Origin: Burkholderiales bacterium | GTDB taxonomy: Bacteria; Pseudomonadota; Gammaproteobacteria; Burkholderiales; SG8-39 | Direction of reading: 5' to 3' | NCBI GenBank assembly: GCA_014860355.1 | Contig: JACZJV010000015.1 | Span: 1 to 38,635 of the forward strand | DNA length: 38,635 nucleotides | Shown here: positions 15,778-32,169 of the stretch, one piece after another | Numbering within the stretch: position 1 is the stretch's first letter | Layout: the number at the start of each line of letters is the position of its first letter | Position numbers and translations under genes: made by a program | The notes under the pieces: generated by a model | Told to the model about the DNA's origin: nothing | The model's input: only the letters and a program-made list of their open reading frames with translations | Databases searched by the model: none

Positions 15778-15788
15778 TTTGGAGATTG

Positions 15789-15940: not shown

Positions 15941-17185
15941 GTGACCCCGGCCGCTCGCAACCTGCTCGATCTACTTCGTCCCGAGGGAGCGTCCGGATCG
16001 GCGGCCCGCGCGCGGGCGCTGCCCCCGCATGCTTGGGAAGAGATCGTTTCCCTGGCCCTAGACCACGGCGTCGCACCCTTGTTGCATCGTTCGCTGCAAG
16101 CGAGCGGCGTACTCGCCGCACTGCCGGAGCATTTGCGCGCGCGTCTCGATGAAGATCGGCGGGCGACGGCCTTCGCCAATCTGCGCAATTGCGCGGCGTT
16201 CAGGGATATCGCGCGGAAGCTGAGGAGGCGAAACATTCCGCTCATGGCGCTCAAAGGCCTGCACCTGGCGGAACGGGTCTACCGCGACATCAGCCTGCGT
16301 CCCATGGGAGATGTGGACATCCTGGTCCCGCAGGCTGAGCTGGGGAACGCCGTAGCGACGCTACAGCGTATGGAATATGGACCGGAAGAGGATATGTCGA
16401 GCGCGGCGGATGCCATGCTGGAGTTAGGTCACGCCGTAGCGCTCGGGCATCGGAGCCTAGGCACCTTGATCGAGCTGCACTGGACCCTGGGCGAACCCGG
16501 TTACGGCTACGAGGCGCCAGTAGAGGAGATCTGGCGCACCGCGGCCAAGGGAACGCTCGCGGACGCCGAAGTGCAGCTCATGTCGCCGGCGTTCATGCTG
16601 CTGCATGTGTGCGCGCACCTCGCCTGCAACCACACCTTCCTGCTCGGCCTGCGCGGCCTGTGCGATATCGCCGAAATCGTCCGCACCTGCCCTGCGCTCG
16701 ATTGGACGGTGGTCGTCGACCAGGGCCGCCGCCATGGCTGGGAGCGAGGCGTCGGCGCTGCGCTGCGTCTCGCGCGCGATCACCTGGGCGCAGCAGTCCC
16801 CGGCGACGTGTTTGCAGCTCTTGGAGCCGATACGCTCGACTCGGCAATGTTGTCCGAGGCGATCGAGCACCTGCTCTCCAGCCACGAAATTCCGGGCGAC
16901 TTCGCCACCGCGCCCAACTTCCTTGCCTTCGTCGAACGGCGTGGCATAGCCGACAAGCTCGCGCTCTTTTGGCGCCGGGTCTTAATGCCGCGCGCCGAAC
17001 TCGCACTCAAATACGGTGTGCCCGAACGCTCACCGCGAATCCTCTTTTGCTACGCCGCGCGCCTGCGCGACCTCGTTCGCCAGTACGCCGCGCGCGCGTG
17101 GACGATCCATTTCTCGGATCCGCAGTTCCGTGAGGCCGTCGCGCGCCACGCGCGCCTTGCGCTCTGGCTAGCCGGGTCGAGATAG
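15941..17185 (+). CDS. Nucleotidyltransferase-family protein (NTP_transf_5 type)
   Basis: 414 residues from a GTG start. The diagnostic segment at ~85-120 reads IPLMALKGLHLAERVYRDISLRPMGDVDILV. The GDVDIL acidic pair corresponds to the metal-binding residues of the polymerase-beta fold in this uncharacterised family, which is frequent in polysaccharide and exosortase-type loci. Later parts include ELHWTLGEPGYGY and a His-rich helix LLHVCAHLACNHTFLLGLRGLCDIAEIV, both family hallmarks. Substrate unknown; transfer of a nucleotide or phosphate group to a glycan precursor is a reasonable guess. It is the only plus-strand gene in the locus and converges on the GT4 gene at 17203. Confidence 0.8.
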   Translation: MTPAARNLLDLLRPEGASGSAARARALPPHAWEEIVSLALDHGVAPLLHRSLQASGVLAALPEHLRARLDEDRRATAFANLRNCAAFRDIARKLRRRNIPLMALKGLHLAERVYRDISLRPMGDVDILVPQAELGNAVATLQRMEYGPEEDMSSAADAMLELGHAVALGHRSLGTLIELHWTLGEPGYGYEAPVEEIWRTAAKGTLADAEVQLMSPAFMLLHVCAHLACNHTFLLGLRGLCDIAEIVRTCPALDWTVVVDQGRRHGWERGVGAALRLARDHLGAAVPGDVFAALGADTLDSAMLSEAIEHLLSSHEIPGDFATAPNFLAFVERRGIADKLALFWRRVLMPRAELALKYGVPERSPRILFCYAARLRDLVRQYAARAWTIHFSDPQFREAVARHARLALWLAGSR

Positions 17186-17202
17186 GCCAGGCACGCCTGC
17201 GC

Positions 17203-18342
17203 TCAGCCGCGCGGCTGGCCCAAAATGGATTTCACCACGTCCAAATATTGCTCGATCACAATTTTCTCGTCGAACTCTTTCTCCACTCTTTCCCGCGCAA
17301 GCCGACCCATATTCGTCCGCTGCTCCGGTGTCAACAGCAGCATGCGGCGCATGGCTGCGGCAAGCGAGGTCGCGTCCTGCACATTGCACAGGAAGCCGGT
17401 TTCCCCGTCTATCACCGCGTGCCGGCAGCCCGGCACATCGGTGGTGATTGCTGGTAGCCCCATACTGGCAGCTTCTAGCAGCGTTTTTGGCATGCCTTCG
17501 CGATAGGACGGCAGCACCACGCAATCGGCTGCACCGTAGACCGGCACCATGTCGTCCGAATGTCCCAGATATTCGATTACGCGCTCGCGCTGCCACGCTT
17601 GCACCTCGTTTCTCGGGACGGCGGAAGGGCTGGGGACATCCAGAAATCCCAGTAGGCGAAAGGACACCGCAGGGAACTCGGCCTTCAACTGCCGCGCCGC
17701 CGCTACGTATTCGCCCACGCCTTTGTCCCACAGCAAGCGCGCCGCCATCAAGAAGGCAAAGGTCCTGTCCTCCCGCGTCTTTGGCTGTGGAGAAAACCGG
17801 GACACGTTCACCCCAGAGCCAGGGATCAGGGCAGTACGTTCCTCATTGACCAAGCCGGCATCAAGAAAAACCGCCCTGTCCTCGGCGTTCTGAAAAAATA
17901 TGCGCGCGGGCCAGGAAAATGCGATTCGATACATCAGCCGCGCGACGCGGGTAAGCCAGCCGCCGGCGATGAATGTCCGACCCAAGCCGGAGACGTTGGC
18001 GACCACCGGAATTCGCCACGCACGCGCCGCGAGCGAGAGGTAGATGTTGACCTTGGGCGTGTAGCTCAGGATCAGCGCCGGTCGTTCGCGCCCCAGCAAT
18101 GTCACCATGCGCAGGAGGGTAAGCAATTCGAGAACCGGATTGGTCCGTGCATTGTCGAGGTCCATGGGGACATACCGCACCCCCAACGACTTTATCCTCG
18201 CGACGTACTCGTCCGGCGGCGCGAACGCGGTCACCTGGAAGCCGGCATGCGCCAGCGCCGTCATCAAACCGGTGCGAAAGTTGAAAATATTCCAGGCGGT
18301 GTTGATGCAAATCCAGACGTCCTTTCGGTGCGATTGGTTCAT
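17203..18342 (-). CDS. GT4-family glycosyltransferase
   Basis: 379 residues with the GT-B layout. The N-terminal acceptor domain (WICINTAWNIFNFRTGLMTAL; PVVANVSGLGRTF) resembles PglA/WbpX-like enzymes that act on undecaprenyl-linked sugars. The C-terminal donor domain has FLMAARLLWDKGVGEYV, YLGHSDDM, and the E-x7-E motif in SYREGMPKTLLEAASMGLPAI followed by TDVPGCRHAVIDGETGFLC. It transfers a sugar from an NDP-sugar to the growing repeat unit at the cytoplasmic membrane face. It is the last minus-strand gene of the locus and follows the EpsG-like gene. Donor and acceptor are not predictable. Confidence 0.88.
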   Translation of the reverse strand: MNQSHRKDVWICINTAWNIFNFRTGLMTALAHAGFQVTAFAPPDEYVARIKSLGVRYVPMDLDNARTNPVLELLTLLRMVTLLGRERPALILSYTPKVNIYLSLAARAWRIPVVANVSGLGRTFIAGGWLTRVARLMYRIAFSWPARIFFQNAEDRAVFLDAGLVNEERTALIPGSGVNVSRFSPQPKTREDRTFAFLMAARLLWDKGVGEYVAAARQLKAEFPAVSFRLLGFLDVPSPSAVPRNEVQAWQRERVIEYLGHSDDMVPVYGAADCVVLPSYREGMPKTLLEAASMGLPAITTDVPGCRHAVIDGETGFLCNVQDATSLAAAMRRMLLLTPEQRTNMGRLARERVEKEFDEKIVIEQYLDVVKSILGQPRG

Positions 18343-18391
18343 GATTGCGTCGCTCGACCTTCGCCGCTAAGGTCAGCGCGCAAAAGGGAAC

Positions 18392-19465
18392 TCACGAGAA
18401 CCAGAACTCGAGTGGATAGAACCGGTAAGGGATCCAGGATCGCGCGTTTGCCGCAAAATTCAACCACACAAATTGAACCAGGCCGCATAGCGCCACTACG
18501 CCGAAGATTGGAAGGCCCCGCGACTCGCGCGGAAACAGATCCGGCAACCTCGATAGCACGTAAAGTTGAATCGGGATCAGGTAAAGCGCTACGCGGTCCA
18601 CCGCAGTTGAAGATGGCGAGAACAGCAGTAAAGGAACAAACGCGACGGCGAGTAGTGCGATCCAAGTCCAAAGTCTGCACTCAAAGGAATTTTCAGTGAG
18701 ATGGTGCCGAAAGAATAGATAGAAGACTCCTGGCACCGCATTCATAGATACCCGAACGGTTGCCCCCTCGGACTCGTATTCGGCCAGGATATAGTTCTGG
18801 ATCAGAGTGTCGGCATACTCCGCCAGCAGGAGGAAGTAAAGAAAAATGCCCGTCGCTCCAACCCAAAACGCGGTCCACCACGGATTGTGGATTCTCGCAA
18901 GAATGGCGATGGGCAGCATGATTAGCGCGGATTTGTGAAACGCGGCTCCCAGTGCGATCCAGAACACGAACTTTGCCGTTTCATCACGACCAAGCTGCAC
19001 CATCCCAAACATTAGCAACCCGATTGCCGCCGCTTGGCGGGTATAACCCATCCCTACAACAATGACTAAATAGGGAATCGCGGCAACCAGGGCCAGCCAA
19101 GGTCTTGGCTGGGCCCTGCAAAATGCAACCAGGCCAGCACAGAAGATGCCGCCGCATATCAAATTGATACCGTAAATTCCCCAACCGGCTTCGGTCGAAA
19201 TTTTGCTAACGACTGAATAAGCTGGATCGCCGTGTTCCGAAACTAATTCGGCTAGGGTGAATTGCTCCGACTGAAAATAGTTCCATAGGTAATTTCCCCA
19301 ATCTCCGCCCACTTCGAATCGATATCCGACGAGCAGTGTCAACAGGGCCCATCCGATGAACCACGGGCGCAGCGAATCGCGCTGACTCGCAAACGCATAT
19401 CCTTGTTCAGTCCTGGCGAGCGCCACGCCTGCCGCCACGACAAACATCAGCCAGTATGTCAGCAT
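18392..19465 (-). CDS. EpsG/Wzy-like polysaccharide polymerase
   Basis: 357 residues with about ten hydrophobic segments. The N-terminal motif VGYRFEVGGDWGNYLWNY matches the EpsG family signature (FRYxxGxDWxxY), followed by the GDPAYSVVSKI region and RQAAAIGLLMFG, which is also conserved. These proteins polymerise repeat units at the periplasmic face in Wzx/Wzy-type pathways. The start is 4 nt after the asnB stop, so they are co-transcribed. It is the only polymerase candidate within the main locus; the O-antigen-ligase protein at 721-2088 is an alternative. Confidence 0.8.
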   Translation of the reverse strand: MLTYWLMFVVAAGVALARTEQGYAFASQRDSLRPWFIGWALLTLLVGYRFEVGGDWGNYLWNYFQSEQFTLAELVSEHGDPAYSVVSKISTEAGWGIYGINLICGGIFCAGLVAFCRAQPRPWLALVAAIPYLVIVVGMGYTRQAAAIGLLMFGMVQLGRDETAKFVFWIALGAAFHKSALIMLPIAILARIHNPWWTAFWVGATGIFLYFLLLAEYADTLIQNYILAEYESEGATVRVSMNAVPGVFYLFFRHHLTENSFECRLWTWIALLAVAFVPLLLFSPSSTAVDRVALYLIPIQLYVLSRLPDLFPRESRGLPIFGVVALCGLVQFVWLNFAANARSWIPYRFYPLEFWFS

Positions 19466-19469
19466 CTAC

Positions 19470-21449
19470 TCAATGCTCCTGCGCGAGCCAAGCCTGGAAC
19501 ATCAATACGGTCCAGAGCCGGGACGTCCAGTCGTGCCGGCCGCTGAGGTGGTCCAGCCAGGTGCGGCGTATGGGCTCGGGATGGAAGTATCCTTCGGACC
19601 GAAGGCGGCGTTCGTCCAGCAGGCTCTCGGCCCAATCGCGCAGCGGACCGCGCAGCCATTCGCCAACCGGGATGGCAAAGCCGGCCTTGGGCCGCTCGAT
19701 CAATTCGCGCGGCACGTACTTGTAGAGCACCTGGCGCAGCGCCCACTTGCCCTGGCCGTTGCGTAACTTCATGTGCAGCGGTAGGCGCCATGCCAGTTCC
19801 ACCACGCGATGGTCCAGAAATGGAACGCGGGTTTCCAGACTCACTCTCATGGCGGCGCGGTCCACCTTGGTCAGAATGTCGTCGGGCAAATAGGTGAGCG
19901 TGTCCCACAGCATCATGCGCTGTTCGGATTCGGGCACGCCGGCCACCAAGTCTGCATCGTCCAGCCGAGTCGGCAGGCGGCCCGCCCCGCGCACTAGGTC
20001 TGTTCCTTGTGGCCACTCAGTCACCAGACTGCGGTACAGATCGTCCATGCTCTGCACGGTTTTTAGCCGGTGTGCCAGCTTGTGCGCCTTGTCGCCCAGA
20101 CGCGCAACGCCCCCGGCTTTAGGCAGCGCTCGGCCCATGGCGTCCCAGGCCGCCACCGGGAGTTGTTGAATACCCGCGCCCAGCGCTTGTCGCAATGCGA
20201 GAGGCATCCAGCCTACGCGCATCCAGATCCGCTGACCCCAATAGTAGCGGTTGTAACCGCCGAACAGCTCGTCCCCGCCATCCCCCGACAGCGCCACGGT
20301 TACAAGTGAGCGCGCCGCTTTGCACACCAAGTGGGTCGGGATTTGGGAGCTGTCTGCAAACGGTTCGTCGTACATAGTGGGTAGCTGCGGAATTACTGCC
20401 CGCGCATCGTCCGCGGTCACACGCAGGGCATGATGCTCGGTCCCCAAGTGCTGCGCCACCGCCAGGGCGTGGGGCGATTCGTCAAATCCCAACTCGTCAA
20501 AGCCGACGGTAAAGGTTCGCACCGGCGACGTGGATTGCGCCTGCATCAGCGCTATGATGACGGACGAATCTACCCCACCCGAAAGGAAAGCACCGAGCGG
20601 CACATCGGCCACTGACTGCAGGGCCACGGCTTTGCGTAGCGTGGTATCCAACGTCGCCACTGCGACAGTTTCGCTTTCGATTGGAGTGGCGAGCCCCTGG
20701 TGTACCGCATCGGTGACGCGCCAATACGGCTCGGGCCGCGCAGTTCTGCTAGCCAAATTCGAAGAGTCTAGCGATAGCATGTACCCTGGCTCCAGTTTGA
20801 ATATGTCCTGGTAAATCGAATAAGGCGCCGGCACCACGCAGTGCTGCAAGTACAAGGCCAGCGCATCGCGACTCACAGGGTTGTCAAAGCCCGGGTAGGC
20901 GCGCAAGGCCTTCAATTCCGATCCATACACAAACGCGCCGCGCACCCAGCCATAGTACAAAGGCTTTTCACCCATGCGGTCGCGGGCTAGGGTAAGTCGA
21001 CGCCCGGCTCGGTCCCATAGAGCGAAAGCAAACATGCCAATCGTGCGCCGCAGGGTAGCGTTCACGCCCCAGGCCGCAAAGCCTGCCAGCAGCGTCTCGG
21101 TGTCCGAGTGGCCGCGCCAATCTAGCATTGCTCCCTCTCCCTTTGGTACAGGGTTGGGGTGAGGGCCCCGATTTAACTCAGCTCGCATCTCTAGGTGATT
21201 GTAAATCTCCCCGTTGAAGACCAGCACATAACGTCCGTTCGCAGATTGCATGGGCTGGTGGCCAGACGGCGAGAGGTCCAAGATGGACAGACGGCGGTGC
21301 GACAGAGCTATTCCTGATTCTGAATCGCTCCACACGCCGGCGTCATCTGGCCCCCGATGTTGGATGGTCAGTGCCATTCGGGTCGCGATGTCTTCCATGC
21401 GGCCCATCGTGCGGGCGTCAGCGGTCAGGAATCCTGCGAATCCGCACAT
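19470..21449 (-). CDS. asnB: Asparagine synthase-type amidotransferase (glutamine-hydrolysing)
   Basis: 659 residues. Cys2 (MCGFAGF) is the N-terminal nucleophile of the class II glutaminase domain (RGPDDAG, SHRRLSILD, VFNGEIYNH). The synthetase domain has the ATP-binding loop FLSGGVDSSVI and GDGGDELFGGYNRYYW. Members in polysaccharide loci often amidate a uronic acid rather than aspartate. With the WbpO-type dehydrogenase of the same locus this is the favoured, unproven role. Oddity: between ELN and WRGHSDTETLL lies RGPHPNPVPKGEGAMLD (residues ~94-110), the translation of a widespread GC-rich repeat, in an exposed loop of the glutaminase domain. Confidence 0.92.
   Translation of the reverse strand: MCGFAGFLTADARTMGRMEDIATRMALTIQHRGPDDAGVWSDSESGIALSHRRLSILDLSPSGHQPMQSANGRYVLVFNGEIYNHLEMRAELNRGPHPNPVPKGEGAMLDWRGHSDTETLLAGFAAWGVNATLRRTIGMFAFALWDRAGRRLTLARDRMGEKPLYYGWVRGAFVYGSELKALRAYPGFDNPVSRDALALYLQHCVVPAPYSIYQDIFKLEPGYMLSLDSSNLASRTARPEPYWRVTDAVHQGLATPIESETVAVATLDTTLRKAVALQSVADVPLGAFLSGGVDSSVIIALMQAQSTSPVRTFTVGFDELGFDESPHALAVAQHLGTEHHALRVTADDARAVIPQLPTMYDEPFADSSQIPTHLVCKAARSLVTVALSGDGGDELFGGYNRYYWGQRIWMRVGWMPLALRQALGAGIQQLPVAAWDAMGRALPKAGGVARLGDKAHKLAHRLKTVQSMDDLYRSLVTEWPQGTDLVRGAGRLPTRLDDADLVAGVPESEQRMMLWDTLTYLPDDILTKVDRAAMRVSLETRVPFLDHRVVELAWRLPLHMKLRNGQGKWALRQVLYKYVPRELIERPKAGFAIPVGEWLRGPLRDWAESLLDERRLRSEGYFHPEPIRRTWLDHLSGRHDWTSRLWTVLMFQAWLAQEH
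21131..21167. repeat. Interspersed repeat inside asnB
   Basis: CTCCCTCTCCCTTTGGTACA and then GGGTTGGGGTGAGGGCC on the plus strand. This resembles the common proteobacterial repeat whose translation reads PHPNPLPEGEGA. It lies in frame in asnB and does not disrupt it. Confidence 0.8.
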
Positions 21450-21602
21450 TGTTCGTTCTTGCTGAATGGATAAACTTCGTGCGCCTCATGGTCAGACATA
21501 CCTGACTGGTCGAACTGCGACCATTCGTCGCCGAAGCTCGCTAACGTTCGCGGATCGATGTTGTCCATGGCGCATGTGTTGTGAAACTGTTCTTACCACG
21601 CG

Positions 21603-22331
21603 TCAGGTATAACGAATCACATCCTCGAGGCTGTTTAGGGAAACTAGGTCGAGTTTCGTAGCCGCGGGTAGTGCTTCCACAAGCAAGCCACGCGCTGTCA
21701 AATGGGCAATGACATACAAGAACCCATGCTCATGGGTAGTCTTGCCCCATTTACCTGGCAGTTCTTCGCGCAAAGTATTGAGCACCACGTCCTTGCGGAA
21801 AATGAACAGTCCGATGTCCCGCTCGCCTGACGTAGGCTGGGCAATACCCTGTTCCCGGGTCTCCACCACGCCGGTAACCCGCCCCGCCGTATTTCGCGTA
21901 ACCACGGTGTAAGCTGAATCAACTACGCGAGTAGCAAATGTGAAATCGTTATGGTGCTGGATATGCGCGTTCACGACAGCTGCCACTGTCTCAGTTTGGA
22001 TAAAAGGAATGTCTCCCCAAATCAGCAGCACGTGTTCTGCCACCGAAAACGACGGCGATCGTTCAAACTTCAGTACGGCGTCACCCATTCCGCGCGGCTC
22101 GGGCTGCACGACCAGATTCGCCTGGACACCCGCGGCATTCAGGCATTGCCGGATGGGAAGCTCGCCCGACGGGCTGACGATGACGGTAGGCTGGACGTCA
22201 TACGGTGCCAACAAATCGGCGATCCGGAGGAGGATCGCCCTTCCTTCAATCGGGAACAGTGTCTTCGGGTATGGCAAGCCGGCGCGGGCGCCCCGCCCGG
22301 CAGCAGCCACCAGTGCGCGGATCTCAGCCAT
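21603..22331 (-). CDS. NTP-transferase (sugar-phosphate or CofC/MobA-like nucleotidyltransferase)
   Basis: 242 residues. The N-terminal motif IRALVAAAGRGARAGLPYPKTLFPI is the nucleotide-binding LxAAGxGxR...PKxL signature. VLLIWGDIPFI supplies the metal-binding Asp of the GT-A-like fold, and the later GLFIFRKDVVLNTL is typical of sugar-nucleotide transferases. It activates a phosphorylated small substrate as an NDP derivative. The ATG at 22331 overlaps the GT2 stop by 8 nt; the longer frame to 22433 would lie inside the GT2 gene. It lacks the acyltransferase tail of GlmU. The substrate is unknown; see the CofD block finding. Confidence 0.82.
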   Translation of the reverse strand: MAEIRALVAAAGRGARAGLPYPKTLFPIEGRAILLRIADLLAPYDVQPTVIVSPSGELPIRQCLNAAGVQANLVVQPEPRGMGDAVLKFERSPSFSVAEHVLLIWGDIPFIQTETVAAVVNAHIQHHNDFTFATRVVDSAYTVVTRNTAGRVTGVVETREQGIAQPTSGERDIGLFIFRKDVVLNTLREELPGKWGKTTHEHGFLYVIAHLTARGLLVEALPAATKLDLVSLNSLEDVIRYT

Positions 22332-23226
22332 TGAAATCCTTACCCACCTTGCCTTGCAGGCCGCGGGCAATCGCCGTATAGAACACGGGCGCATATCTTC
22401 CCACCAACAATGCAATGACAAAGGCGATGCCATTGCGGGCGGCCATACGGTACAAGAAAACCATAAGCAGCATTACATGCCTTGTCCACACCGCGTTGAA
22501 ATAGCGAGCGTTCAGTACCAGAGAATTCTTTACAAAGTAGTACGCTTTGACTGGTGTATATGAGCGCTTGCTTACGTCCGGGTGATAGTGCACCGCATCC
22601 AGCACCGAAATAACGGAGCCGGCTTTGCGTAACCTGAAGAAATAGTCGACCTCGTCGCCATAGATGAAATAATCGCGGTTCACGTTGCCGACCTGGCGAA
22701 CCGCGGCAATGGAGACCAAAGCGCCGTTGAAAAGGTGCGCAAACGCATACGTGCCATCCGGCGCCGCAGCCCGCAAGTCTGCCAAGGTCGGCAGCTTGCG
22801 CGGCCATCCCCAGATCACGGGCAGACCGGCAGCGTCGAGCACAGGGAACGGAAACACAAAGCGTGCCGGCGCATCTTCGTGAATGACCACGGAAGAGGCG
22901 CACGCCACGCCGGGGACCATCGCGGCCGCCAGCGCCGCCAGCGCGCCCCGATCTGGGAAGCCGTCGTCGTCCATCAGCCACACGGCGTCAAATCCTCGGT
23001 CCATCGCATGCTGGATCCCACGGTGCCAGCCGCCCGCCGAACCTACGTTATCCTGCGTGACGAAGGTAATGCCCCGACGCTGCAGCATTTCGACAGTGCT
23101 GTCTGTGCTGGCGTTGTTGACGATCAGGATCGTCTCAGGCGGGCAGGTCTGTTCCAGTAAATGGTCGATGCAGCGCGCTAGGAGGTCGCAGCGGTTGTGG
23201 GTTACGATTACTGCCAGAATCTTCAC
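22324..23226 (-). CDS. GT2-family glycosyltransferase
   Basis: 300 residues. It starts (M)KILAVIVTHNRCDLLARCI, then ILIVNNASTDSTVEML, DNVGSAGGWHRGI and the divalent-metal motif AVWLMDDDGFPD. This is the layout of rhamnosyl- or galactofuranosyl-type GT2 enzymes; the C-terminus has a hydrophobic helix. The GTG at 23226 is chosen because AGGA lies 9 nt upstream; the GTG at 23232 is too close to it, and an ATG at 23343 would run far into the methyltransferase gene. It overlaps the NTP-transferase by 8 nt. Confidence 0.88.
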   Translation of the reverse strand: MKILAVIVTHNRCDLLARCIDHLLEQTCPPETILIVNNASTDSTVEMLQRRGITFVTQDNVGSAGGWHRGIQHAMDRGFDAVWLMDDDGFPDRGALAALAAAMVPGVACASSVVIHEDAPARFVFPFPVLDAAGLPVIWGWPRKLPTLADLRAAAPDGTYAFAHLFNGALVSIAAVRQVGNVNRDYFIYGDEVDYFFRLRKAGSVISVLDAVHYHPDVSKRSYTPVKAYYFVKNSLVLNARYFNAVWTRHVMLLMVFLYRMAARNGIAFVIALLVGRYAPVFYTAIARGLQGKVGKDFNG

Positions 23227-23231
23227 ATCCA

Positions 23232-24095
23232 CTAGTCCTGTAGGGCCTGATCGACCCTGATCTTTTGAAAGCGCGAGCATTTCAGTGAGTATTGACTTAA
23301 TCCAGTAATCAGGCCAAAAATCAAATGAAAATTGCGGATCCAATTTCTTAACCGGCCGTGGCGTGCAAGTACGCGCCTAACGATGTTTTTCACACCGGGA
23401 GCGTTTTTCGCGGCCGTACGCGTGCGCGACGCGTTTTCAGGATTCCATGTCGGGGCATAGAACGGCTGCATCACGGAAATGGACTCAACATCGCGAACTT
23501 TGCGCGTCACACTCAATAAGATGATTGGCTCCAGCGAGACAATTTCAATTCTGACACCGGGCTTGGCTACCGGTACCTTGTACCAAAAAGATGAATCGAG
23601 ACTGGAGGCATAATAAACGGCCGTCTCCAAAAATCCATTTTCTTCACTGTAAATCGAATAGAGTAGATCTGATGAAAATTGCCAAAAGCCATGACCATTA
23701 AGATTATTTACCGGAAGAAAATGGATTATTCTTCCCCCAATCTTGCATAGATTGATAGTGTTTCGAAAAGCGGAGGCCAAATCAAAAACGTGCTCTAACG
23801 AGCCAGCGTCGATTATGGTATTAAACTTAGCATCTATACTTAATTGCTGATTTAGATCGGCAACGTACGTAGCACCTTCATAATCAGAAATATCAAGAGA
23901 ATCCACGCTTTCTGCATTCAAAGTCAACAACATGGGTTCGCAATAGCCGGTTCTTTCAATTGTCTTGCCTAGGTCCATTTCAATGAACCCATATTCAACA
24001 TCCAATGTCTGCCTTCCGACCGTCAATACCTTTCCGAGCGCGTGCTGGGCCGCCTGAAGCTTGATGAAGTTGTATGCGTGTATATCAATACCCAT
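23232..24095 (-). CDS. Methyltransferase-like protein with altered SAM motif
   Basis: 287 residues. ADLNQQL at the second strand, FNTIIDAGSLEHVFDLASAF and the LCKIGGRIIHFLPVNNLNGHGFWQF segment fit the C-terminal half of class I SAM-dependent methyltransferases. Motif I, usually GxGxG, is replaced by VLTVGRQTLDV. It may bind SAM unusually or have another role. The ATG at 24095 is preceded by GGAG and overlaps the HAD gene end by 11 nt; the ATG at 24113 is less well placed. The gene is visibly more A/T-rich than its neighbours, suggesting separate acquisition. Confidence 0.6.
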   Translation of the reverse strand: MGIDIHAYNFIKLQAAQHALGKVLTVGRQTLDVEYGFIEMDLGKTIERTGYCEPMLLTLNAESVDSLDISDYEGATYVADLNQQLSIDAKFNTIIDAGSLEHVFDLASAFRNTINLCKIGGRIIHFLPVNNLNGHGFWQFSSDLLYSIYSEENGFLETAVYYASSLDSSFWYKVPVAKPGVRIEIVSLEPIILLSVTRKVRDVESISVMQPFYAPTWNPENASRTRTAAKNAPGVKNIVRRVLARHGRLRNWIRNFHLIFGLITGLSQYSLKCSRFQKIRVDQALQD

Positions 24096-24726
24096 GACTC
24101 TGCTCCATGTCATTCAGTGCCCGCAACCAATTCAGGCCCCGAACATCAACATGTGGCAAGTTTGCGGCACTTGCGGCAAGGAAACCGGCTTCGGAATCTT
24201 CAAACACCAGCGCCTCTGCCGCCGGCAAACCAGTCAACTGAAGTACTTTGAGAAACCCTTCAGGGTCCGGTTTTCCGCAGGCCACATCGTTTGCGCAAAT
24301 CAGGGGGTCAAACTTGCCCGTTAAGCCCAGCTTCTCAAGCGCAAGGTTTACGGTACCGCGTGACCCAGATGTGACCATGGCAAGCCGATAGCGCTGACTG
24401 GCCCAGCGCAGGAATTCATCTACACCACGCAATGGCTGCAACGATTGAACGATCATCTGGCGCACGCGCTGCTGCTTGGCAGTTACAAGTGCGGTGATTT
24501 CCGCTTCTGCCAGCGTACGCCCGGCTCGCGCCAGGCAGTGGTGCATGGCATCCGGCGTCTTCATCCCCGCGATGCTGGGGTAATCGACTGCGACGCCCAG
24601 TGGTTTAAGCACGGCGCTGAATGCGGTGGCGTGCAGGGGCGTCGTATCTGCCACTGTACCGTCGAAGTCAAGAATCAGCAGACGCTTGCCCCGCAATGCT
24701 TGCGCCACATTGAGCAGCGGTTTCAC
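24085..24726 (-). CDS. HAD-superfamily phosphatase (phosphoglycolate/beta-phosphoglucomutase-like)
   Basis: 213 residues with all four HAD motifs: DFDGTVADTT (I, nucleophile Asp20 and Asp22), TSGSRGT (II), Lys in GKPDPEGF (III) and FEDSEAG (IV). A cap domain sits after motif I (~35-95). It should remove or move a phosphate on a small sugar or organic-acid phosphate. The GTG start overlaps the CofD-like stop (GTGA). Placed between a CofD-like and a nucleotidyltransferase gene, it is the likely phosphatase step of their pathway. Confidence 0.88.
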   Translation of the reverse strand: MKPLLNVAQALRGKRLLILDFDGTVADTTPLHATAFSAVLKPLGVAVDYPSIAGMKTPDAMHHCLARAGRTLAEAEITALVTAKQQRVRQMIVQSLQPLRGVDEFLRWASQRYRLAMVTSGSRGTVNLALEKLGLTGKFDPLICANDVACGKPDPEGFLKVLQLTGLPAAEALVFEDSEAGFLAASAANLPHVDVRGLNWLRALNDMEQSHGY

Positions 24727-25952
24727 GTGCTGCCGACCAGTGCGGACGCCTCTTCGTAAAGGCCGAGAATGGTCCGCACCACCTTGGCGCCGTCGTGTTT
24801 GCCTGGCGACTCCGGAGATTCAAAAGCATCAACCACGCGCGGTACCGCAATGTCGCCAAAGCCATCCTCATCGTATTCTACATACGTTTCGTCGGCTTTC
24901 AGTCGACTCTGGTTGACCAGCACCACATCAAACAACTGCACCATCGCGTAGCTATGCTCGTCCGATAGGTTCAAGTAACGGTACGCGCCACGAATGTAGT
25001 CAGATGCCTTGTAGCTAGGTGTTTCGTAGTCGGCGCCAATGTTGGTGACAAACGCTTTGTAAGCCGTGTGGTTGTCTGCAATGGTCTGCGCCAGTCCTGC
25101 CGACATGTAGGTAGGATACAGCGACGAATGCTGCGTACCCGCCGAGTAAATGATGATGTCGGCTTGCTGCAAGGCAGCGCGTACGCCAGGTGAAACGCCC
25201 ACGTAGCAATGATGCCTCTCTAGGTAATAGCGCTTGTCTGCCGTGCTCAGGGTTTCGAATCGGGACTTGTCAAGAAGCTTGTCCAGAAGATAAACGCGTT
25301 CCACGCGCACGTTGGAGCGAAGCTCCACAATTTCGGCTTCGCTGTAGAGCATCTGCCCGTTTTCGCGCAGAGCCACTAGCTTCTTGTCCTCGATACTGGT
25401 GGGCAGCACGGTGCCGCGAAGTTTGAATAGGCGATCAATGTAAAGCGTGGCCCGCTCAATGTTGCGGTTGAAAATCAGAAACGCGCCTGCATAAATGCAG
25501 TTCATGATTGAGCAATCTGCAAAGCTGAAGCGCTCGCCGCTGACCCGTTCGATGGCGCCAAGACCAGTCACAAATTCGCGAACGAATGACTGCAGGGCCG
25601 AATGCGATTTGGCACTCGTTAAGGTGGCGCCGACCAAGTCGGCTTGGTCACCTTGCGCGAACCGGCGCAGGTGCGCGAGGACCTCGGCCAGTTCGCAGTG
25701 CGGTGGGAACCGGTACCGAAACAGGTGCATGTTGGCATCGTAGTCCGGGTCGTCCTGCGGCAGCATCAACTCCTGCACCTTTCGGATATCCGACGGGCCC
25801 AGCATGCCGAAAATCCGGCGAATCTCTCCCGTGGATTTTCCGTCGTCATACGCGTTGACCACGGAGGTAACGTGCAAACCCTGTCGCGCAAGCAGCGCGG
25901 GAATCAGCGAGGCAGCGCCGCGGCCTCCATTCAAGATAACCACATTTAGCAT
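24723..25952 (-). CDS. CofD/YvcK-family protein
   Basis: 409 residues. The N-terminus VVILNGGRGAASLIPALL is the glycine-rich loop of the CofD/YvcK fold. VVNAYDDGKSTGEIRR, FGMLGPSDIRKV, and later ADIIIYSAGTQHSSLYPTYM (the family's GPGSLYTSI-like segment) complete it. CofD transfers phospholactate from a GDP-linked donor during F420 synthesis; YvcK homologues bind UDP-sugars and influence cell-wall growth. No other F420 gene is present. Near 190-225 it has a beta insertion (LVALRENGQMLYSEAEIVELRS region). It is the first of five coupled genes. Which activity it has, transferase or UDP-sugar binding, is open. Confidence 0.8.
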   Translation of the reverse strand: MLNVVILNGGRGAASLIPALLARQGLHVTSVVNAYDDGKSTGEIRRIFGMLGPSDIRKVQELMLPQDDPDYDANMHLFRYRFPPHCELAEVLAHLRRFAQGDQADLVGATLTSAKSHSALQSFVREFVTGLGAIERVSGERFSFADCSIMNCIYAGAFLIFNRNIERATLYIDRLFKLRGTVLPTSIEDKKLVALRENGQMLYSEAEIVELRSNVRVERVYLLDKLLDKSRFETLSTADKRYYLERHHCYVGVSPGVRAALQQADIIIYSAGTQHSSLYPTYMSAGLAQTIADNHTAYKAFVTNIGADYETPSYKASDYIRGAYRYLNLSDEHSYAMVQLFDVVLVNQSRLKADETYVEYDEDGFGDIAVPRVVDAFESPESPGKHDGAKVVRTILGLYEEASALVGST

Positions 25953-25970
25953 GATCGGAACATCCTTGTT

Positions 25971-27188
25971 TTATTCGTTCAACAATTCTCGATACACGGC
26001 CGCGTAGCGCGCGACTCCTTCTTCTAACGCAAATTCGCGGCTGTTCTCGCGGATACTGACGGTGCTGGTTTCATTGAACCGGATCACCTGTTGTACCGCG
26101 GCACGCAGCGTCTCCTCAGAAAAATCATGGACGATAACAGACCCGTTACGTTGCAGGCTGATGATATTGTCCAAATCGCCGACCCCAGTGTTGGCGATAA
26201 CGGGTACATTGCAGGCAAATAGCTCGGCCAGCTTAGCAGGTGAACATCCGGCTTTGGAGCGAGCTGCGCGAATGAATACTACAGAGAGATCGGCCAAAGC
26301 GATCAGCGCCGGAATTTCCTCCCTATCTGCCGAAAGAAATCGGACCGCGTCTCGCGCTACGCCCTGGGCATCGCACTCTGCTTCGACTAGCTCCTTGCCG
26401 TTATTGGATGCAAACAGGAATCGAGCACGCGATTGCACCGTCAGCACTTGGCGGAAAAGCGCCACCATCTGGGGCAGCAGGTAGTCGGGGCCGAGACTGC
26501 CGAGATATAAGAGGACAAATTCGCCGGGCTGCAATCCAGCCTTTTCACGGGCACGCGCAAGGTCTGCAGCAGTCAACCGTGCCGCGTCGAAGTGGGTAAA
26601 GTCTGCGCAGCAGGGGATCACCCGAAAGCGTCGTTCCGGCTGATGGACGTCGCTCAGATACCAGCCAGACAAGACCTCGCGCGCCCGGTCGGTCAGACAC
26701 ACCACTTTGTCTGCATCCCGAATCATTGGACCTTCGAGCCGCTTAAGACGACGAAAAGCGAGCCGGGCTAGGCCGCGCCTGTTCTCCAAGCCACCATCAA
26801 CGTAGAAGTCCCGAAAATCAAAAATGTATTTCACGCCTAAGGCCCGCTTGAGGCCATGACCAATTACCGCTGGGGGGAAGCTGCGACAGTGAATCAAGCG
26901 TATGCCCTCTTGCCGAACGATGCGGTGCGCTGCCAGCCGCATTGCAACCTGCGTGAACGCTTGGCCCACCAACTGCGGCTTGTTGCGGTAGCGCACGCGT
27001 GTCCATAGGATGCCTACGTCATCGAACAGTTGCTGGTACTTATCGATCAAAGTGTCCTGCCCGGGTTTCTCGGCGCTGAGAACATGAAGCCTGAAGCCCT
27101 GTCGCGCCAGGCTCAGCACGTATGGCGCGACCTGGGAACGGCCGATGTGATCAGTTACGCCGTTTTGGGTCATGTAGAGAACCGTCAT
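25971..27188 (-). CDS. GT4-family glycosyltransferase
   Basis: 405 residues, GT-B fold. N-terminal VLYMTQNGVTDHIGRSQVAPYV, then LIHCRSFPPAVIGHGL, and YIFDFRDFYVDGG, typical of GT4. The donor half has FVLLYLGSLGPDYLLPQMV, and SPAKLAELFACNVPVIAN replaces the common E-x7-E with a K-x2-E form. It overlaps the following GT4 gene by 4 nt. It adds one sugar of the repeat unit; specificity is unknown. Confidence 0.87.
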   Translation of the reverse strand: MTVLYMTQNGVTDHIGRSQVAPYVLSLARQGFRLHVLSAEKPGQDTLIDKYQQLFDDVGILWTRVRYRNKPQLVGQAFTQVAMRLAAHRIVRQEGIRLIHCRSFPPAVIGHGLKRALGVKYIFDFRDFYVDGGLENRRGLARLAFRRLKRLEGPMIRDADKVVCLTDRAREVLSGWYLSDVHQPERRFRVIPCCADFTHFDAARLTAADLARAREKAGLQPGEFVLLYLGSLGPDYLLPQMVALFRQVLTVQSRARFLFASNNGKELVEAECDAQGVARDAVRFLSADREEIPALIALADLSVVFIRAARSKAGCSPAKLAELFACNVPVIANTGVGDLDNIISLQRNGSVIVHDFSEETLRAAVQQVIRFNETSTVSIRENSREFALEEGVARYAAVYRELLNE

Positions 27189-28378
27189 TGGTCAGTGCTT
27201 TGAAAATGTATTGCTTTTAGCCAATTGTCTCTAACGGCCGCGCTGTTGAAATGGGTCGCCCGCGTCAGCGCCCCTTCGCACCAAGCGGTCCACTGCACGT
27301 CGTCCCGACTAGCCTTCGTCAGCGCCTCTCGCCAGACCGCCAAGGTGTCCGGCTTCGCTTCTGCCGGCACCGGGAGCAGGGCACCCGCAGGTGTGTACTC
27401 CGCGCTAGTGCGGTCCGGGTCGCAGATGCCGAGCCCCTGCAGCGCGGTGCGCACGCCTCCGGCCTGGCAGTCTGACGCCAGCACCGGCAAGCCCAGCGAG
27501 AGCGCCTCCAACACCACCATGGGCAGGCCTTCGGCATGGGAGCTCAGCAGCAACGCACGCGCACCTAACATATAGGTTGCGGGGTCTGAGACCTTGCCCG
27601 CAAATACAACCTGGGCGGCAATGTCATCAATGGTGCTGCCAGTGCTCAATCCAAGCGCGCCAGTCAGCCGGATCAAAGAATCCCGTAGCGGGCCGTCACC
27701 CAAGAGCACCAATTGCGCATTAGACTGGTCCACGACAAAGCCAGACCATGCTTGCAGAAGGCCTTCAACATTTTTTTCCGGACTTAGCCGTCCGCACCAA
27801 ACAAAACGTTGCAATGCATCAGATGGCAATTTCGAAATCGCATCAGGCCTGTCCACAAAATTGTCGATATGGCTGATGCGATCAGAAGGAAGGCGGTAAA
27901 GCGCCTTCAATTCCTGCGCTAGCGATTCGTTGACGGTGATTACACGGTCAAAGCGTTGATAGACTGCCGCCACCAATGGCCGAAGCCGAACCATCAAACG
28001 GTTGGACGGATTGCCCAATACATTGATATGGCAAAGCGCAAGCTTATGGTCGCGTCCCCCGGAAAGTACGCTGATTAAGTCGGCGCCCCACAGATTGCTG
28101 ATGGTGACATCGATGCCTAGTCGCTGCTTGAGCCGGCGTAAGCGCCAAGCGGCCAGCACGTAGGCTAGAGATCTAAGAGGCAGAGGCAATCGGGGTATGG
28201 GTCCCAGCGTATGCATCGGCACGCCACTTTCGAAATGACGCCAGGACGCAGGCGCGTCGAACGTGGCTTGGTGCACCTCACGCCCCGGGCCAGCCAACAG
28301 CTTGCACAGCGAATGCACCATTCGCTCCGTACCGCCGATGCCGACCATGGACGGGATGAGTAGGAGAACTCGCTGCAT
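27185..28378 (-). CDS. GT4-family glycosyltransferase
   Basis: 397 residues. LLLIPSMVGIGGTERMVHSL at the start, then ITVNESLAQELK, RFVWCGRLSPEKNVEGLL, LVLLGDGPLRDSL and the E-x7-E motif in EGLPMVVLEALSLGLPVLASD. It follows the previous GT4 gene with a 1-nt gap and overlaps the next by 4 nt (ATGA), so the three GT4 genes form one coupled unit. Confidence 0.9.
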   Translation of the reverse strand: MQRVLLLIPSMVGIGGTERMVHSLCKLLAGPGREVHQATFDAPASWRHFESGVPMHTLGPIPRLPLPLRSLAYVLAAWRLRRLKQRLGIDVTISNLWGADLISVLSGGRDHKLALCHINVLGNPSNRLMVRLRPLVAAVYQRFDRVITVNESLAQELKALYRLPSDRISHIDNFVDRPDAISKLPSDALQRFVWCGRLSPEKNVEGLLQAWSGFVVDQSNAQLVLLGDGPLRDSLIRLTGALGLSTGSTIDDIAAQVVFAGKVSDPATYMLGARALLLSSHAEGLPMVVLEALSLGLPVLASDCQAGGVRTALQGLGICDPDRTSAEYTPAGALLPVPAEAKPDTLAVWREALTKASRDDVQWTAWCEGALTRATHFNSAAVRDNWLKAIHFQSTDQ

Positions 28379-28379
28379 G

Positions 28380-29489
28380 TCAACTGCGGTCCTCGTTGAA
28401 GTATGCGAGGTATTGATCCGATATGGTGCCGATAGCGAAGTCCTTGGCCCGTTCCATCAACCGGTCTCGGTCGACCGGTTGTTTCAGGCTTTCAACAATG
28501 CCCGCTGCAAGCGCCGCGGGATCCTCCACAGGCACCAGCTTTCCGTATCGTCCGTTAGCGAGTATTTCTGCGGGACCGCTTTGGCAGTCAGTGCTGACAA
28601 CCGGCACACCGCATTCCAATGCTTCCACAATGACGTTGCCAAAACCTTCCCAACGGGAAGACAGCACAAATAAATCAGCGCTCCGAAACCAAGGATAAGG
28701 GTCCACTACAAAACCAGGGACGGCGACCCTATCGTGGAGGCCAAGATCGTCAACAAGCTTATTCAAGTCGGCACGCAATGGACCATCACCCAATATGGTC
28801 AGCTTGGCATTCAGCGAAAGCGGCAATAGCGAAAATGCCTTGATTAGGCTGGCATGATCCTTCTGCGCCTTTAGTGTGCCCACGGAAAGGATGTGACAGT
28901 CGAAACCAGCACCCCACAATTCTTCCTTGATTAGCATCGGCTCCCGGTGTGGGGATACTCCAATAGCCGTTGGGTTATAGATCACGCGCACCTTCGATTC
29001 CGAAAACCCACCCAGTTCGCACATATCTTGTCTAACGCCATGTGACACAGCAATCAATCCATTTGCCGAGGGATAGGTCAGCGACATCACCGCGCCAAGA
29101 AATCTTGGAGAAATGCCAAGCTCTCGCGCGCTAGAAATGCTTAGAACATTGTGGTCGCTTAAATATAGGCGCCCTGGTTTGCCTGCCAGCCACCACGACA
29201 AAACAGCAGCCGAGGTCAACGGCCACATGCCGGCGAGAACAATATCAGGACGAGCTTTTCGCAGGTAACGTGCAAGTGGCAGTATAACTTGGCGAATGCG
29301 GGCCGCCCCCAATTCAATAATTCCAATTTCATCTAGCAATAGATTGAGCAACTCGCCGCTTCGCTGCATCAATGCGAAGTCAACCTGGATCCCTCGCGCA
29401 TGCCAATCGTTTGCCAGATAAACATGCAAGCGCTCAGCCCCTCCGCCCCTGAGGTCTGGTAAAAGTATGAGAATGCGCTTTTGCGTCAC
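28380..29489 (-). CDS. GT4-family glycosyltransferase
   Basis: 369 residues. RILILLPDLRGGGAERLHVYLA at the start, LSVGTLKAQKDHASLIKAF, LTILGDGPLRADL, and EGFGNVIVEALECGVPVVSTD with the E-x7-E pair. The GTG at 29489 is chosen; the frame is open to 29690, but those 67 codons are not GT4-like and overlap the methyltransferase gene. The ribosome site is weak. Confidence 0.88.
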   Translation of the reverse strand: MTQKRILILLPDLRGGGAERLHVYLANDWHARGIQVDFALMQRSGELLNLLLDEIGIIELGAARIRQVILPLARYLRKARPDIVLAGMWPLTSAAVLSWWLAGKPGRLYLSDHNVLSISSARELGISPRFLGAVMSLTYPSANGLIAVSHGVRQDMCELGGFSESKVRVIYNPTAIGVSPHREPMLIKEELWGAGFDCHILSVGTLKAQKDHASLIKAFSLLPLSLNAKLTILGDGPLRADLNKLVDDLGLHDRVAVPGFVVDPYPWFRSADLFVLSSRWEGFGNVIVEALECGVPVVSTDCQSGPAEILANGRYGKLVPVEDPAALAAGIVESLKQPVDRDRLMERAKDFAIGTISDQYLAYFNEDRS

Positions 29490-29595
29490 AAATAATATTA
29501 AGCGCGCCTGCCGGCGTGGGAAACGGGCAGTATATGATCTGCAACGTGCGGCATAGCCGCGGTGCGTGCCACCAACTCTATCGTTGCCCGCTTGA

Positions 29596-30477
29596 TTAAG
29601 CCTTGACCAGGATCGCCTTGAACCGATTGCCAAAGATAACACCCGCAAAGTGACGCCCGACCATCCAGACGGCGAGGGAAGCAATGGCACTCTTGATCAC
29701 TCCGCCGCCTCGGTAAGGCCAGCCTGTTTCATATATTTCCCAGTGACGCACGCTCAAACTCCCATCGACTCGTGTGAAAAAAGCCCTTTGCTCATTGGCA
29801 TTGGTGCGAAAGAGATGAGTTGGTGGATGATCGGCCACAAATGTCGGTGTGAGTATTCGTTTTATCGTACCGAAAAGTTTTGCAGCCCAGAGCACTGGAC
29901 TCGGGTTTTCCTCAATCGGCCCTTCGACAAACAACACGCCGCCGGACCTTAACGATCGTAGTAGCTGCGCTAGCGTGGCCGCAGGATCGGGTAGGTGTTC
30001 TAAAACATCGCCCATGTGGATGGCATCGAAGCTGGGGGCTGTAGTCAGTTTGCTAAATACATTTACTGACATGGTTTCGCAATTGGCGTTTCGCGCGGCG
30101 AATATCGCTGCATCGCTATCAAAATCCACGCCAAGCGGGACGAAACCCTGCGATGCGCACGCTTTCAAAAAACTGCCGGCACCACAGCCAAAATCGAGAA
30201 TCGTGGCACCGGGTTCGAGGTACTGGCTCAACAACCGCGTCGAATCGCTGTACTCGACACCCTCACTGCCATCGTAATATCGGTCGTGATATGCAGCTTT
30301 GGCATACATTCGTTCGAAGGTCTGCGTATCCGGAACCGGGTCGACAAACACGCTTTTGCATTCGCCGCATTTCAAGTAGTAGAAGCGCGTGTCGTTGAAA
30401 TAGGTTGCATAGGGGAAACTTACACCTGTCGGCCGACCACCGCAGATTGGGCACTCTCGGGCAATGGACAAATCCAC
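29596..30477 (-). CDS. Class I SAM-dependent methyltransferase with zinc-binding N-terminus
   Basis: 293 residues. N-terminal CPICGG and CGEC pairs (~9-39) form a zinc ribbon of the kind seen in sugar C-methyltransferase relatives. ATILDFGCGAGSFLKAC is motif I, GVDFDSDA motif II, and DAIHMGDVLEHLPDP the post-motif acidic site. The C-terminus has a basic, partly hydrophobic tail. It probably methylates a sugar nucleotide or the glycan. GTG start. The 106-nt gap to the next gene holds nothing recognisable. Confidence 0.85.
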   Translation of the reverse strand: MDLSIARECPICGGRPTGVSFPYATYFNDTRFYYLKCGECKSVFVDPVPDTQTFERMYAKAAYHDRYYDGSEGVEYSDSTRLLSQYLEPGATILDFGCGAGSFLKACASQGFVPLGVDFDSDAAIFAARNANCETMSVNVFSKLTTAPSFDAIHMGDVLEHLPDPAATLAQLLRSLRSGGVLFVEGPIEENPSPVLWAAKLFGTIKRILTPTFVADHPPTHLFRTNANEQRAFFTRVDGSLSVRHWEIYETGWPYRGGGVIKSAIASLAVWMVGRHFAGVIFGNRFKAILVKA

Positions 30478-30558
30478 CTCAACCCATCATGGAAGAACAT
30501 AATCGATACCAAGATGTTAGCGGAAGCGCTACCGCTTTCTTCAATAGGTAAATGCCCA

Positions 30559-31473: not shown

Positions 31474-31541
31474 GGTGATCTAAGTCGTATCGAGCGAATT
31501 CCTACAGCAAAGGCTTTACGCGGTATCGTAAATAAGTGCGA

Positions 31542-32117
31542 TTACCGCCTCTCGCGAATCACTGCTGCCGGAACGCCTGCCGCGAAGCAGTCACAAGGTA
31601 TGTCCTTAGTAACTACTGCGTTCGCACCTATCACTGCACCAGAGCCGATCTCGCATCCCGCGGTTACTACCACATGACTTCCTAGCCATACATCATTCCC
31701 AATCAAAATCGGGGCCGCACATTGGTTCTGTTTAGCCATACCTGTTCCTTTCGCCATGCCATGGTTGGCGTCACGTATTACCGAGTACGCCGCAATCAAA
31801 CATTGTTCACCAATCTTCACGGAGTCGATCGCGACCAATTGACTGCCTACGCCAATGTATGACCCTTTGCCGATAATAAGCGATCCGCGTTGCGCGTATA
31901 AATACACAAAATCGTCAAGGGAAACCCCGTCTTCCAATACTATCAAGCCACCATCTGTCGTTTGCACCTTCACCATACGCCCAATCGAGATATTTTTGCC
32001 GAGCTGTATGTTGATGCCGAGCACCTTCGACTCGAAGTAAAAAAAAGTATTGCGCAGGTATCCTAATGATCTAACTCCAGCGCTCACTGCCTTACGGCGC
32101 AATACGTTTAATTTCAT
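31542..32117 (-). CDS. Hexapeptide-repeat acetyltransferase
   Basis: 191 residues, left-handed beta-helix type. Imperfect hexapeptides run from ~residue 40 (ISIGRMVKVQ) through LIIGKGSYIGVGSQLV, ILIGNDVWLGSHVVVTAG and IGSGAVIGANAVVTKDIP. The His of RDANHG and the terminal VPAAVI match WbbJ/maltose O-acetyltransferase-like proteins. It probably O-acetylates a sugar using acetyl-CoA. It lies between FkbM and Wzx. Confidence 0.9.
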   Translation of the reverse strand: MKLNVLRRKAVSAGVRSLGYLRNTFFYFESKVLGINIQLGKNISIGRMVKVQTTDGGLIVLEDGVSLDDFVYLYAQRGSLIIGKGSYIGVGSQLVAIDSVKIGEQCLIAAYSVIRDANHGMAKGTGMAKQNQCAAPILIGNDVWLGSHVVVTAGCEIGSGAVIGANAVVTKDIPCDCFAAGVPAAVIRERR

Positions 32118-32169
32118 TATGCGTTACGAACAGAAGTACCGTGAATAATGCAAGGGAAAGTCGGCACAA

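Follow-up and report, generated by a model that had tools for sequence, protein, structure and literature searches.

The CofD/YvcK superfamily has so far been known for CofD, which carries out one reaction in F420 synthesis, and for YvcK/GlmR proteins, which bind uridine diphosphate (UDP)-sugars and carry out uridylyltransfer. A described pathway with a related set of enzymes is the GDP/ADP-heptose route, which consists of a kinase, the HAD enzyme GmhB, a nucleotidyltransferase and a glycosyltransferase. For FbiA, an attack on the beta-phosphate of a nucleotide-activated substrate, with guanosine monophosphate as the leaving group, has been proposed (PMC7253369; the cited sources are represented here and below by excerpts). 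YvcK binds UDP-sugars, and one YvcK structure has NAD (PMC5482804), while GlmR makes UDP-N-acetylglucosamine from UTP and N-acetylglucosamine-1-phosphate and loses activity about 100-fold when D40, D41 and N198 are replaced (PMC10128056). Phage-encoded sugar activation for DNA base modification is described for the SP-15 hypermodification genes and for the RB69 and Thanatos pentose modules, and the excerpts of these sources name no CofD-like protein (PMC5977210, PMC6024577, PMC12838424). Here we examined a stretch of 38,635 bp, referred to as the window, which covers contig JACZJV010000015.1 of a Burkholderiales bacterium (GCA_014860355.1). It carries a CofD-like gene packed together with genes for a HAD enzyme, a weakly assigned methyltransferase-like protein, a GT2 glycosyltransferase and a nucleotidyltransferase (NTase). 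The CofD-like, HAD, GT2 and NTase genes quite likely constitute a mobile cassette for the synthesis of an activated sugar and its attachment to a glycan, and related cassettes probably act in the same way with phage DNA bases or a polyketide as the target.

We scanned 84,980 species genomes for the CofD-like protein and obtained 37 loci, which is an undercount as the scan needs exact peptide matches. Loci L003–L037 hold 35 full-length relatives, 39–80% identical to the window protein, in beta-, gamma-, alpha- and deltaproteobacteria, SAR86, Prochlorococcus and relatives, Bacteroidetes and Clostridia. Partner genes were counted from profile matches of 25 bits or more within 9.5 kb, the profiles being built from the cassette's own partners. 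HAD genes were detected beside 31 of the 35 relatives, GT2 genes beside 31 and NTase genes beside 30, with all three beside 26. On the other hand, the 21 control loci around other CofD, YvcK or GAK proteins contained one HAD match (26 bits), no GT2, no NTase and no complete set; for five of them the absence was taken from the profile-match list outside the automatic count, their flanks are about 6 kb versus about 8 kb for most relatives, and one of the 21 (L046) was afterwards placed within the clade. The presence of the HAD, GT2 and NTase set beside the CofD-like gene exceeds chance. An earlier sequence-only reading of this DNA had taken the block for a functional unit and suggested a neighbourhood survey of CofD-HAD-NTase sets; the unit proved real and the survey strongly positive.

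The order CofD-HAD-GT2-NTase is kept in 25 of the 26 complete sets, some with an inserted gene (methyltransferases or another GT2), whereas in L013 the GT2 lies upstream. A GT4 gene is often the gene immediately upstream of the cassette in the relatives, and in L005 and L024 the contig ends ahead of any visible NTase. The HAD of L005 (2810–3196), from an alphaproteobacterial single-cell genome, appears as two separate hidden Markov model pieces and is seemingly broken; it is counted among the 31. In a set of 199 relatives that comprised the host genome and 13 others from its genus, the CofD-like gene was found in the host genome only, while a metagenome-assembled genome (MAG) of Accumulibacter encodes a protein 80% identical to it. 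Thus, the gene appears to move horizontally.

When 398 genomes of the phylum were searched by profile, 11 gave matches, namely the host itself and 10 others with open frames of 599–723 amino acids. The eight of these fusion frames that were read by eye all continue as GT2-like sequence after the CofD-like domain; the continuation was confirmed by Pfam in the one tested (L107). HAD was found nearby in 6 and NTase in 7 of the 10 fusion loci. The fusion operon of L107 (8965–12586) also encodes a methyltransferase, a radical SAM enzyme and a 689-amino-acid protein with no Pfam match.

Relatives were also identified in 23 phage-type loci, which comprise 21 IMG/VR contigs, record LR756500 and MAG contig L039, viral by appearance; they include the near-duplicate pairs L050/L065, L054/L055, L058/L068 and L062/L063, and their phage records span 15 to 462 kb. 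All 23 have a HAD, fused to the CofD-like domain in 22, and 22 have an NTase. A T4-type beta-glucosyltransferase is present in 17 and a TET-associated glycosyltransferase (TAGT) in 2, so that 19 of 23 carry a DNA glycosyltransferase. The two glucosyltransferase copies tested matched PF09198 (64.9 and 76.8 bits, cut-off 27) and the beta-glucosyltransferase family phrog_7922. Thymidylate synthase-like genes lie near several of the phage cassettes (PF00303 in the three tested) and so do dUTPases, as read by eye.

We then used the phage glucosyltransferase itself as bait. Of the resulting 76 phage loci, which overlap the 23, include near-copies and were collected with a profile made from cassette-linked copies, 36 carried CofD, HAD and NTase together, 38 carried none of the three and 2 carried CofD with one other, and phage glucosyltransferase loci thus carry the cassette nearly all-or-none. 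With a band chosen after seeing the table, the cassette was present in 37 of 45 loci at 399 bits or above and in 1 of 31 below. Whole-record searches of 20 of the 38 cassette-free records, many of them fragments, found no copy elsewhere, while the positive control L054 was matched. In 17 cassette-free loci, no recurrent sugar-activation genes were recognised by eye beside the glucosyltransferase. Seven cassette-free loci (L167, L175, L188, L195, L198, L204 and L206) have a thymidylate-synthase-like gene just upstream of the glucosyltransferase, as judged from one cluster sequence. When two phage fusion proteins served as tblastn queries on a collection of 50,697 phage records, in which the presence of SP-15, RB69 and Thanatos is unconfirmed, only LR756500 was matched. 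A link between the L054 phage NTase and the Thanatos UDP-xylose pyrophosphorylase or RB69 was dropped, since tblastn against phages (E≤0.01) likewise matched only LR756500. The window NTase had no phage match at 0.01 and no plasmid match at 1e-10.

A third setting was found in Clostridia. In L032, the CofD and HAD genes lie between a giant polyketide-synthase-like frame with a 297-amino-acid protein and a GT1 gene (EryCIII-like C-terminal domain); the polyketide assignment comes from inspection of the translated sequence. L034 and L036 show similarly sized frames in the same order. Enoyl-CoA hydratase-like and HMG-CoA-synthase-like frames were also seen by eye in L032. The 297-amino-acid neighbour gave no Pfam or NCBIfam match at 0.01 and no solved structure below E 0.18; by its HxHxQ motif, read by eye, it may be HIT/GalT-like.

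On the basis of sequence, we place the CofD-like protein in a third clade of the CofD/YvcK superfamily, other than the F420 enzyme. In a midpoint-rooted tree of 85 rows, several of them long, 66 form one group with a support of 95/96, apart from rows labelled F420 CofD, YvcK-like and GAK-like by motif and tree (of these control rows, L001 alone was compared with NCBIfam models). The group contains the window protein with 35 bacterial relatives, 20 phage-type rows, 9 CofD-GT2 fusions and 1 Acaryochloris plasmid protein, and within it the 36 core rows cohere only at 80/12. The placement of the Chloroflexi protein of L038, which sits on a long branch, is uncertain. Its locus (2148–7461) encodes in a row a glucokinase (PF02685, 309 bits), an aminotransferase-like frame (a by-eye assignment), the CofD-like protein, an NTase and an epimerase-like frame, with no HAD match nearby.

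None of the named subfamilies claims the window protein. Its best NCBIfam score is to the GAK system model TIGR04357 (99.8 bits, cut-off 340), followed by the YvcK model TIGR01826 (92.6 bits, cut-off 196), and membership in both was rejected. The GAK partners also differ: beside L049, annotation shows an ATP-grasp enzyme, an HprK-related kinase and phosphatases in place of the HAD, NTase and glycosyltransferase of the cassette. The F420 CofD model TIGR01819 gave no match at E≤0.1. Across the whole genome, no match to CofC (PF01983) or CofE (PF01996) was found at E≤0.001, despite an apparently genuine F420-type CofD on contig C41 (L001 1330–2412, minus strand; L131) that reaches 257.3 bits with TIGR01819 against a cut-off of 257.45; F420 synthesis by the locus was rejected. 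The sequence-only reading saw no further F420 gene, which agrees with the scan of 20 window proteins, but the genome has this CofD on another contig.

A PDB sequence search with the CofD-like protein returned YvcK proteins from E 3.9e-13 down and no CofD at E≤1. Its AlphaFold2 model (pLDDT 93.3, pTM 0.92) was closest in Foldseek to YvcK 2hzb (E 1.5e-20, target TM 0.84; 0.84–0.87 for 2hzb and 2o2z), with FbiA/CofD structures ranking second (E 2.4e-8 to 3.4e-7, target TM 0.54–0.65). With YvcK/GlmR it shares the nearest fold, the nearest PDB sequence and the DDGxSTG and (S/G)DIR motifs, whereas Asn33, Ser54, Lys58, the HAD, NTase and glycosyltransferase partners and about 100 more residues set it apart. 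With F420 CofD/FbiA (3c3d, 6uw3) it shares the fold, the aspartates and the Asn of NxxDD, but it has GPSDIRK where CofD has SPDxDT, and its partner is GlmU-like, not CofC-like.

The aspartates D36 and D55 are present in every row having a letter there. By motif spacing, taken without the FbiA sequence in hand, they presumably correspond to the FbiA metal ligands Asp45 and Asp57 (PMC7253369). N33 occurs in 36/36 core, 19/20 phage and 8/8 complete fusion rows and in 5/5 F420 CofDs, and in none of the 7 YvcK-like or 4 GAK-like rows. K58 marks the clade, with 65 of the 65 group rows that have a letter, together with L038, and none of 18 outside rows.

As YvcK is the nearest fold and binds UDP-sugars (PMC5482804), the CofD-like protein could be a YvcK-like UDP-sugar sensor that regulates the locus, which the sequence-only reading had kept as its alternative. 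However, the invariant residues, the strict partnership, the fusions to HAD and GT2 and the presence in phages and in a polyketide-like cluster favour an enzyme, and a pure regulator is highly improbable. It could also be an accessory uridylyltransferase of GlmR type, redundant with the NTase, as D36 and D37 match GlmR D40 and D41. This too is improbable, since the presumed N198 position is Thr or Ser (T in 21 and S in 15 of 36 rows, a doubtful mapping with Asn in 1 of 7 YvcK-like controls), 13 of 20 phage rows have Asn in place of D37, and the operon also encodes a complete GlmU-like NTase.

The partner enzymes point to a sugar. The NTase is nearest to GlmU (PDB E 1.3e-11, profile E 9.1e-32), and CofC appeared only at E 0.0094 in the PDB search, with none in the profile list at 0.001. 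In 30 aligned rows, the window and 29 of the 30 core loci having an NTase, K23, Q76, D107 and N233 are invariant. The catalytic residues of GlmU are K25, Q76 and D105 (PMC10128056), and they align with NTase K23, Q76 and D107 in 30/30 rows. The NTase thus shares the family and the catalytic Lys, Gln and Asp of the GlmU pyrophosphorylase domain; unlike GlmU, it has no acetyltransferase domain, and its C-terminal half has conserved motifs of its own, GERDIG and EHGFL.

The bacterial HAD falls in the beta-phosphoglucomutase (beta-PGM) family, with 105.6 bits to TIGR02009 (below the cut-off of 153.35) and E 4.9e-14 to the beta-PGM structure 1lvh. Across 30 rows, from which L005 and L037 are excluded, D20 and D22, which stand for the nucleophile and acid aspartates, and Lys84 are present in 30/30, Ser122 in 27/30 and Arg123 in 26/30, and the position that we take to be beta-PGM Arg49, a distal-phosphate residue, by applying beta-PGM numbering, holds Thr and not Arg in 29/30. 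The phage HAD belongs to another class, with phosphomannomutase/alpha-phosphoglucomutase nearest (profile E 5.4e-17); its model (pLDDT 90.9) matched 9hn3 in Foldseek (E 7.5e-11), with sugar and nucleotide phosphatases close behind. Two HAD classes near phosphosugar mutases, joined to one shared partner, argue for a sugar phosphate at the HAD step.

These data bear on the central proposal of the sequence-only reading, that a phosphorylated three-carbon acid or polyol is made and transferred by F420-type chemistry. Membership in the CofD superfamily, the retained aspartates and Asn, and an NTase in the same gene block, as CofC with CofD, are in its favour, and nucleotide activation followed by CofD-type transfer is still plausible; the protein itself is not an F420 CofD, since TIGR01819 is unmatched and YvcK is nearer. 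A sugar phosphate is favoured over the three-carbon acid because the NTase is nearest to GlmU and the HAD is in the beta-phosphoglucomutase family, both HAD classes being sugar-phosphate families. We therefore give the three-carbon substrate little probability.

The computations show which genes make up the set and that it recurs, as well as the fusions, the predicted fold and the conserved residues. For the chemistry, we suggest that the HAD would convert a sugar phosphate to a sugar-1-phosphate, which the GlmU-like NTase would turn into a nucleoside diphosphate (NDP)-sugar, probably a UDP-sugar. The CofD-like protein would then be a metal-dependent transferase acting on the NDP-sugar, and the glycosyltransferase would supply or extend the acceptor. 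With CofD-type chemistry, an NDP-sugar and an acceptor hydroxyl would give acceptor-O-phosphate-sugar, a phosphodiester, and a nucleoside monophosphate. Such transfer of sugar-1-phosphate is the simplest reading because the superfamily acts on NDP-linked compounds (FbiA, YvcK), and we put it forward tentatively as the likeliest version of the reaction; the ligand of the CofD-like protein may also be a dinucleotide. A precedent for a sugar phosphodiester in phage DNA is SP-15, which encodes a phosphomannomutase, a uridylyltransferase and glycosyltransferases and whose base carries phosphodiester-linked glucuronate-1-phosphate beside glucose (PMC5977210). The explanation as a whole, with the cassette and sugar-1-phosphate transfer taken together, has about an even chance of being right. 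The widest form, a third catalytic branch of sugar-1-phosphate transferases in one mobile cassette that serves surface polysaccharides, a clostridial polyketide and the glucosylated DNA bases of phages, giant ones included, is possible but doubtful.

Alternatively, the step of the CofD-like protein may precede those of the HAD and NTase and yield an unusual sugar phosphate, for instance through phosphoryl transfer at the anomeric position like that of the heptose-pathway kinase. The HAD and NTase would then yield an NDP-sugar, from which a dedicated glycosyltransferase adds an ordinary glycosidic residue with no phosphodiester. The cassette shares the HAD, NTase and glycosyltransferase logic of the heptose route, with the CofD-like protein in the place of the kinase. 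A glycosyltransferase accompanies the set (GT2 in 31/35 core loci, DNA glycosyltransferase in 19/23 phage loci) and its type varies with the context (GT2, GT1, T4-BGT, TAGT or fused GT2); the CofD-HAD fusion in 22/23 phage loci and the 8-nt overlap of NTase and GT2 also fit. The module GT2s resemble the galactofuranosyltransferase GlfT1: 24/24 of those aligned, out of 32 in hand with the window included, matched NF050113 at 1e-10 (window 117.5 bits, below the cut-off of 330), and a search of the genome gave no UDP-galactopyranose mutase. This is a weak hint of a furanose, whose donor would come from elsewhere. Nevertheless, we know of no superfamily member that makes a sugar phosphate, and a common hexose phosphate could already be turned into an NDP-sugar by a HAD mutase and an NTase alone. 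Furthermore, 8 of the 45 higher-scoring phage loci have the glucosyltransferase but lack the set, and whole-record searches of those 8 gave no copy, many searched records being fragments. Formation of the donor by the CofD-like protein is less likely than not, though nearly as likely as the phosphodiester route.

Several observations weigh against transfer of sugar-1-phosphate by a common cassette. The reaction and the sugar are, for all members, predictions from sequence and context and unproven, and with a macromolecule as the target the acceptor would have to differ from context to context, in spite of the invariant motifs. The SP-15 phosphodiester arises without a described CofD in the excerpted source, whose authors name a CDP-glycerol glycerophosphotransferase (PMC5977210). 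The bacterial HAD may be a phosphatase instead of a mutase because Thr replaces Arg at the presumed Arg49 position. The set is also incomplete in places: HAD is missing in L028, L030, L031 and L033, with L031 also lacking GT2; neither GT2 nor NTase is present in the three clostridial loci L032, L034 and L036 (Clostridium, Anaerocolumna); and the fusion loci L109, L115 and L132 show neither HAD nor NTase. Moreover, the fusions seen join the CofD-like domain to HAD or to a glycosyltransferase and never to the NTase. L046, the Acaryochloris plasmid protein that served as a control, lies inside the clade yet is partnerless.

Plasmid relatives of the CofD-like protein were found in 9 records, and none of the 5 examined has HAD, GT2 or NTase partners. 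The L046 gene (7001–8059) is on a conjugative Acaryochloris plasmid and in the phage part of the tree, with no HAD, GT2 or NTase matches nearby.

Table 1. Positions of the cassette genes, motifs and surrounding features in the window
Feature	Position	Strand	Evidence
CofD-like protein, 409 amino acids	24723..25952	-	Pfam PF01933 CofD, 110.8 bits (cut-off 30); AlphaFold2 model; Foldseek; tree
HAD, beta-phosphoglucomutase family, 213 amino acids; phosphosugar mutase or phosphatase	24085..24726	-	HAD_2, 92.2 bits (cut-off 23.8); TIGR02009; PDB 1lvh
Weak SAM-methyltransferase-like protein, optional insert	23232..24095	-	Best Pfam match 17.5 bits, below cut-off of 30
GT2 glycosyltransferase, nearest named model galactofuranosyltransferase GlfT1	22324..23226	-	Glycos_transf_2, 71.7 bits (cut-off 23.3); NF050113
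GlmU-like NTase, 242 amino acids	21603..22331, stop codon read	-	NTP_transf_3, 58 bits (cut-off 27); PDB and profile matches
Motif N33-x-Y-D36-D37-G-K-S-T-G42 (first presumed metal aspartate, CofD-type Asn)	25827..25856	-	Residue table, 85 rows
Motif G52-P-S-D55-I-R-K58 (second presumed metal aspartate, clade-specific Lys)	25779..25799	-	Residue table, 85 rows
GT4 glycosyltransferase directly upstream of the cassette	25971..27188	-	Pfam; gene maps
Polysaccharide locus around the cassette	14770..35706		Pfam

The open reading frames of the window place the five minus-strand genes, with their ends and overlaps (Table 1), where the sequence-only reading had put them. CofD and HAD overlap by 4 nt, HAD and methyltransferase by 11 nt (with ATG at 24095) and GT2 and NTase by 8 nt, and a 5-nt gap separates methyltransferase from GT2 if the GT2 frame starts with the GTG at 23226; with the in-frame GTG at 23232 as its start, the two would overlap by 1 nt. 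The methyltransferase-like gene is present as that reading had it, with an alternative in-frame ATG at 24113 that is also open; the family assignment is weak and the gene is outside the conserved set. It gave no NCBIfam match, and in phmmer at 1e-4 the window protein was the best match to no protein in loci L003–L039.

The polysaccharide locus around the cassette encodes, by Pfam, an epimerase, several GT4s, an EpsG-type polymerase, an asparagine synthase-like amidotransferase, an acetyltransferase and a UDP-sugar dehydrogenase. A PF14907 NTP_transf_5 protein (194.6 bits) is encoded at 15941–17185 on the plus strand, convergent with the polysaccharide operon.

No description of a cassette with a third CofD/YvcK clade was found in the literature searched, which has most subscription journals outside its coverage. 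The cassette spans glycans, a polyketide-like cluster and phage DNA glycosyltransferases. If true, a third, horizontally spread branch of the superfamily with fixed partners would mean a new step in sugar activation or in sugar-phosphodiester chemistry. As the cassette connects bacterial surface glycans with phage DNA glycosyltransferases, work on one informs both, and it provides a lead to a DNA base modification not yet known.

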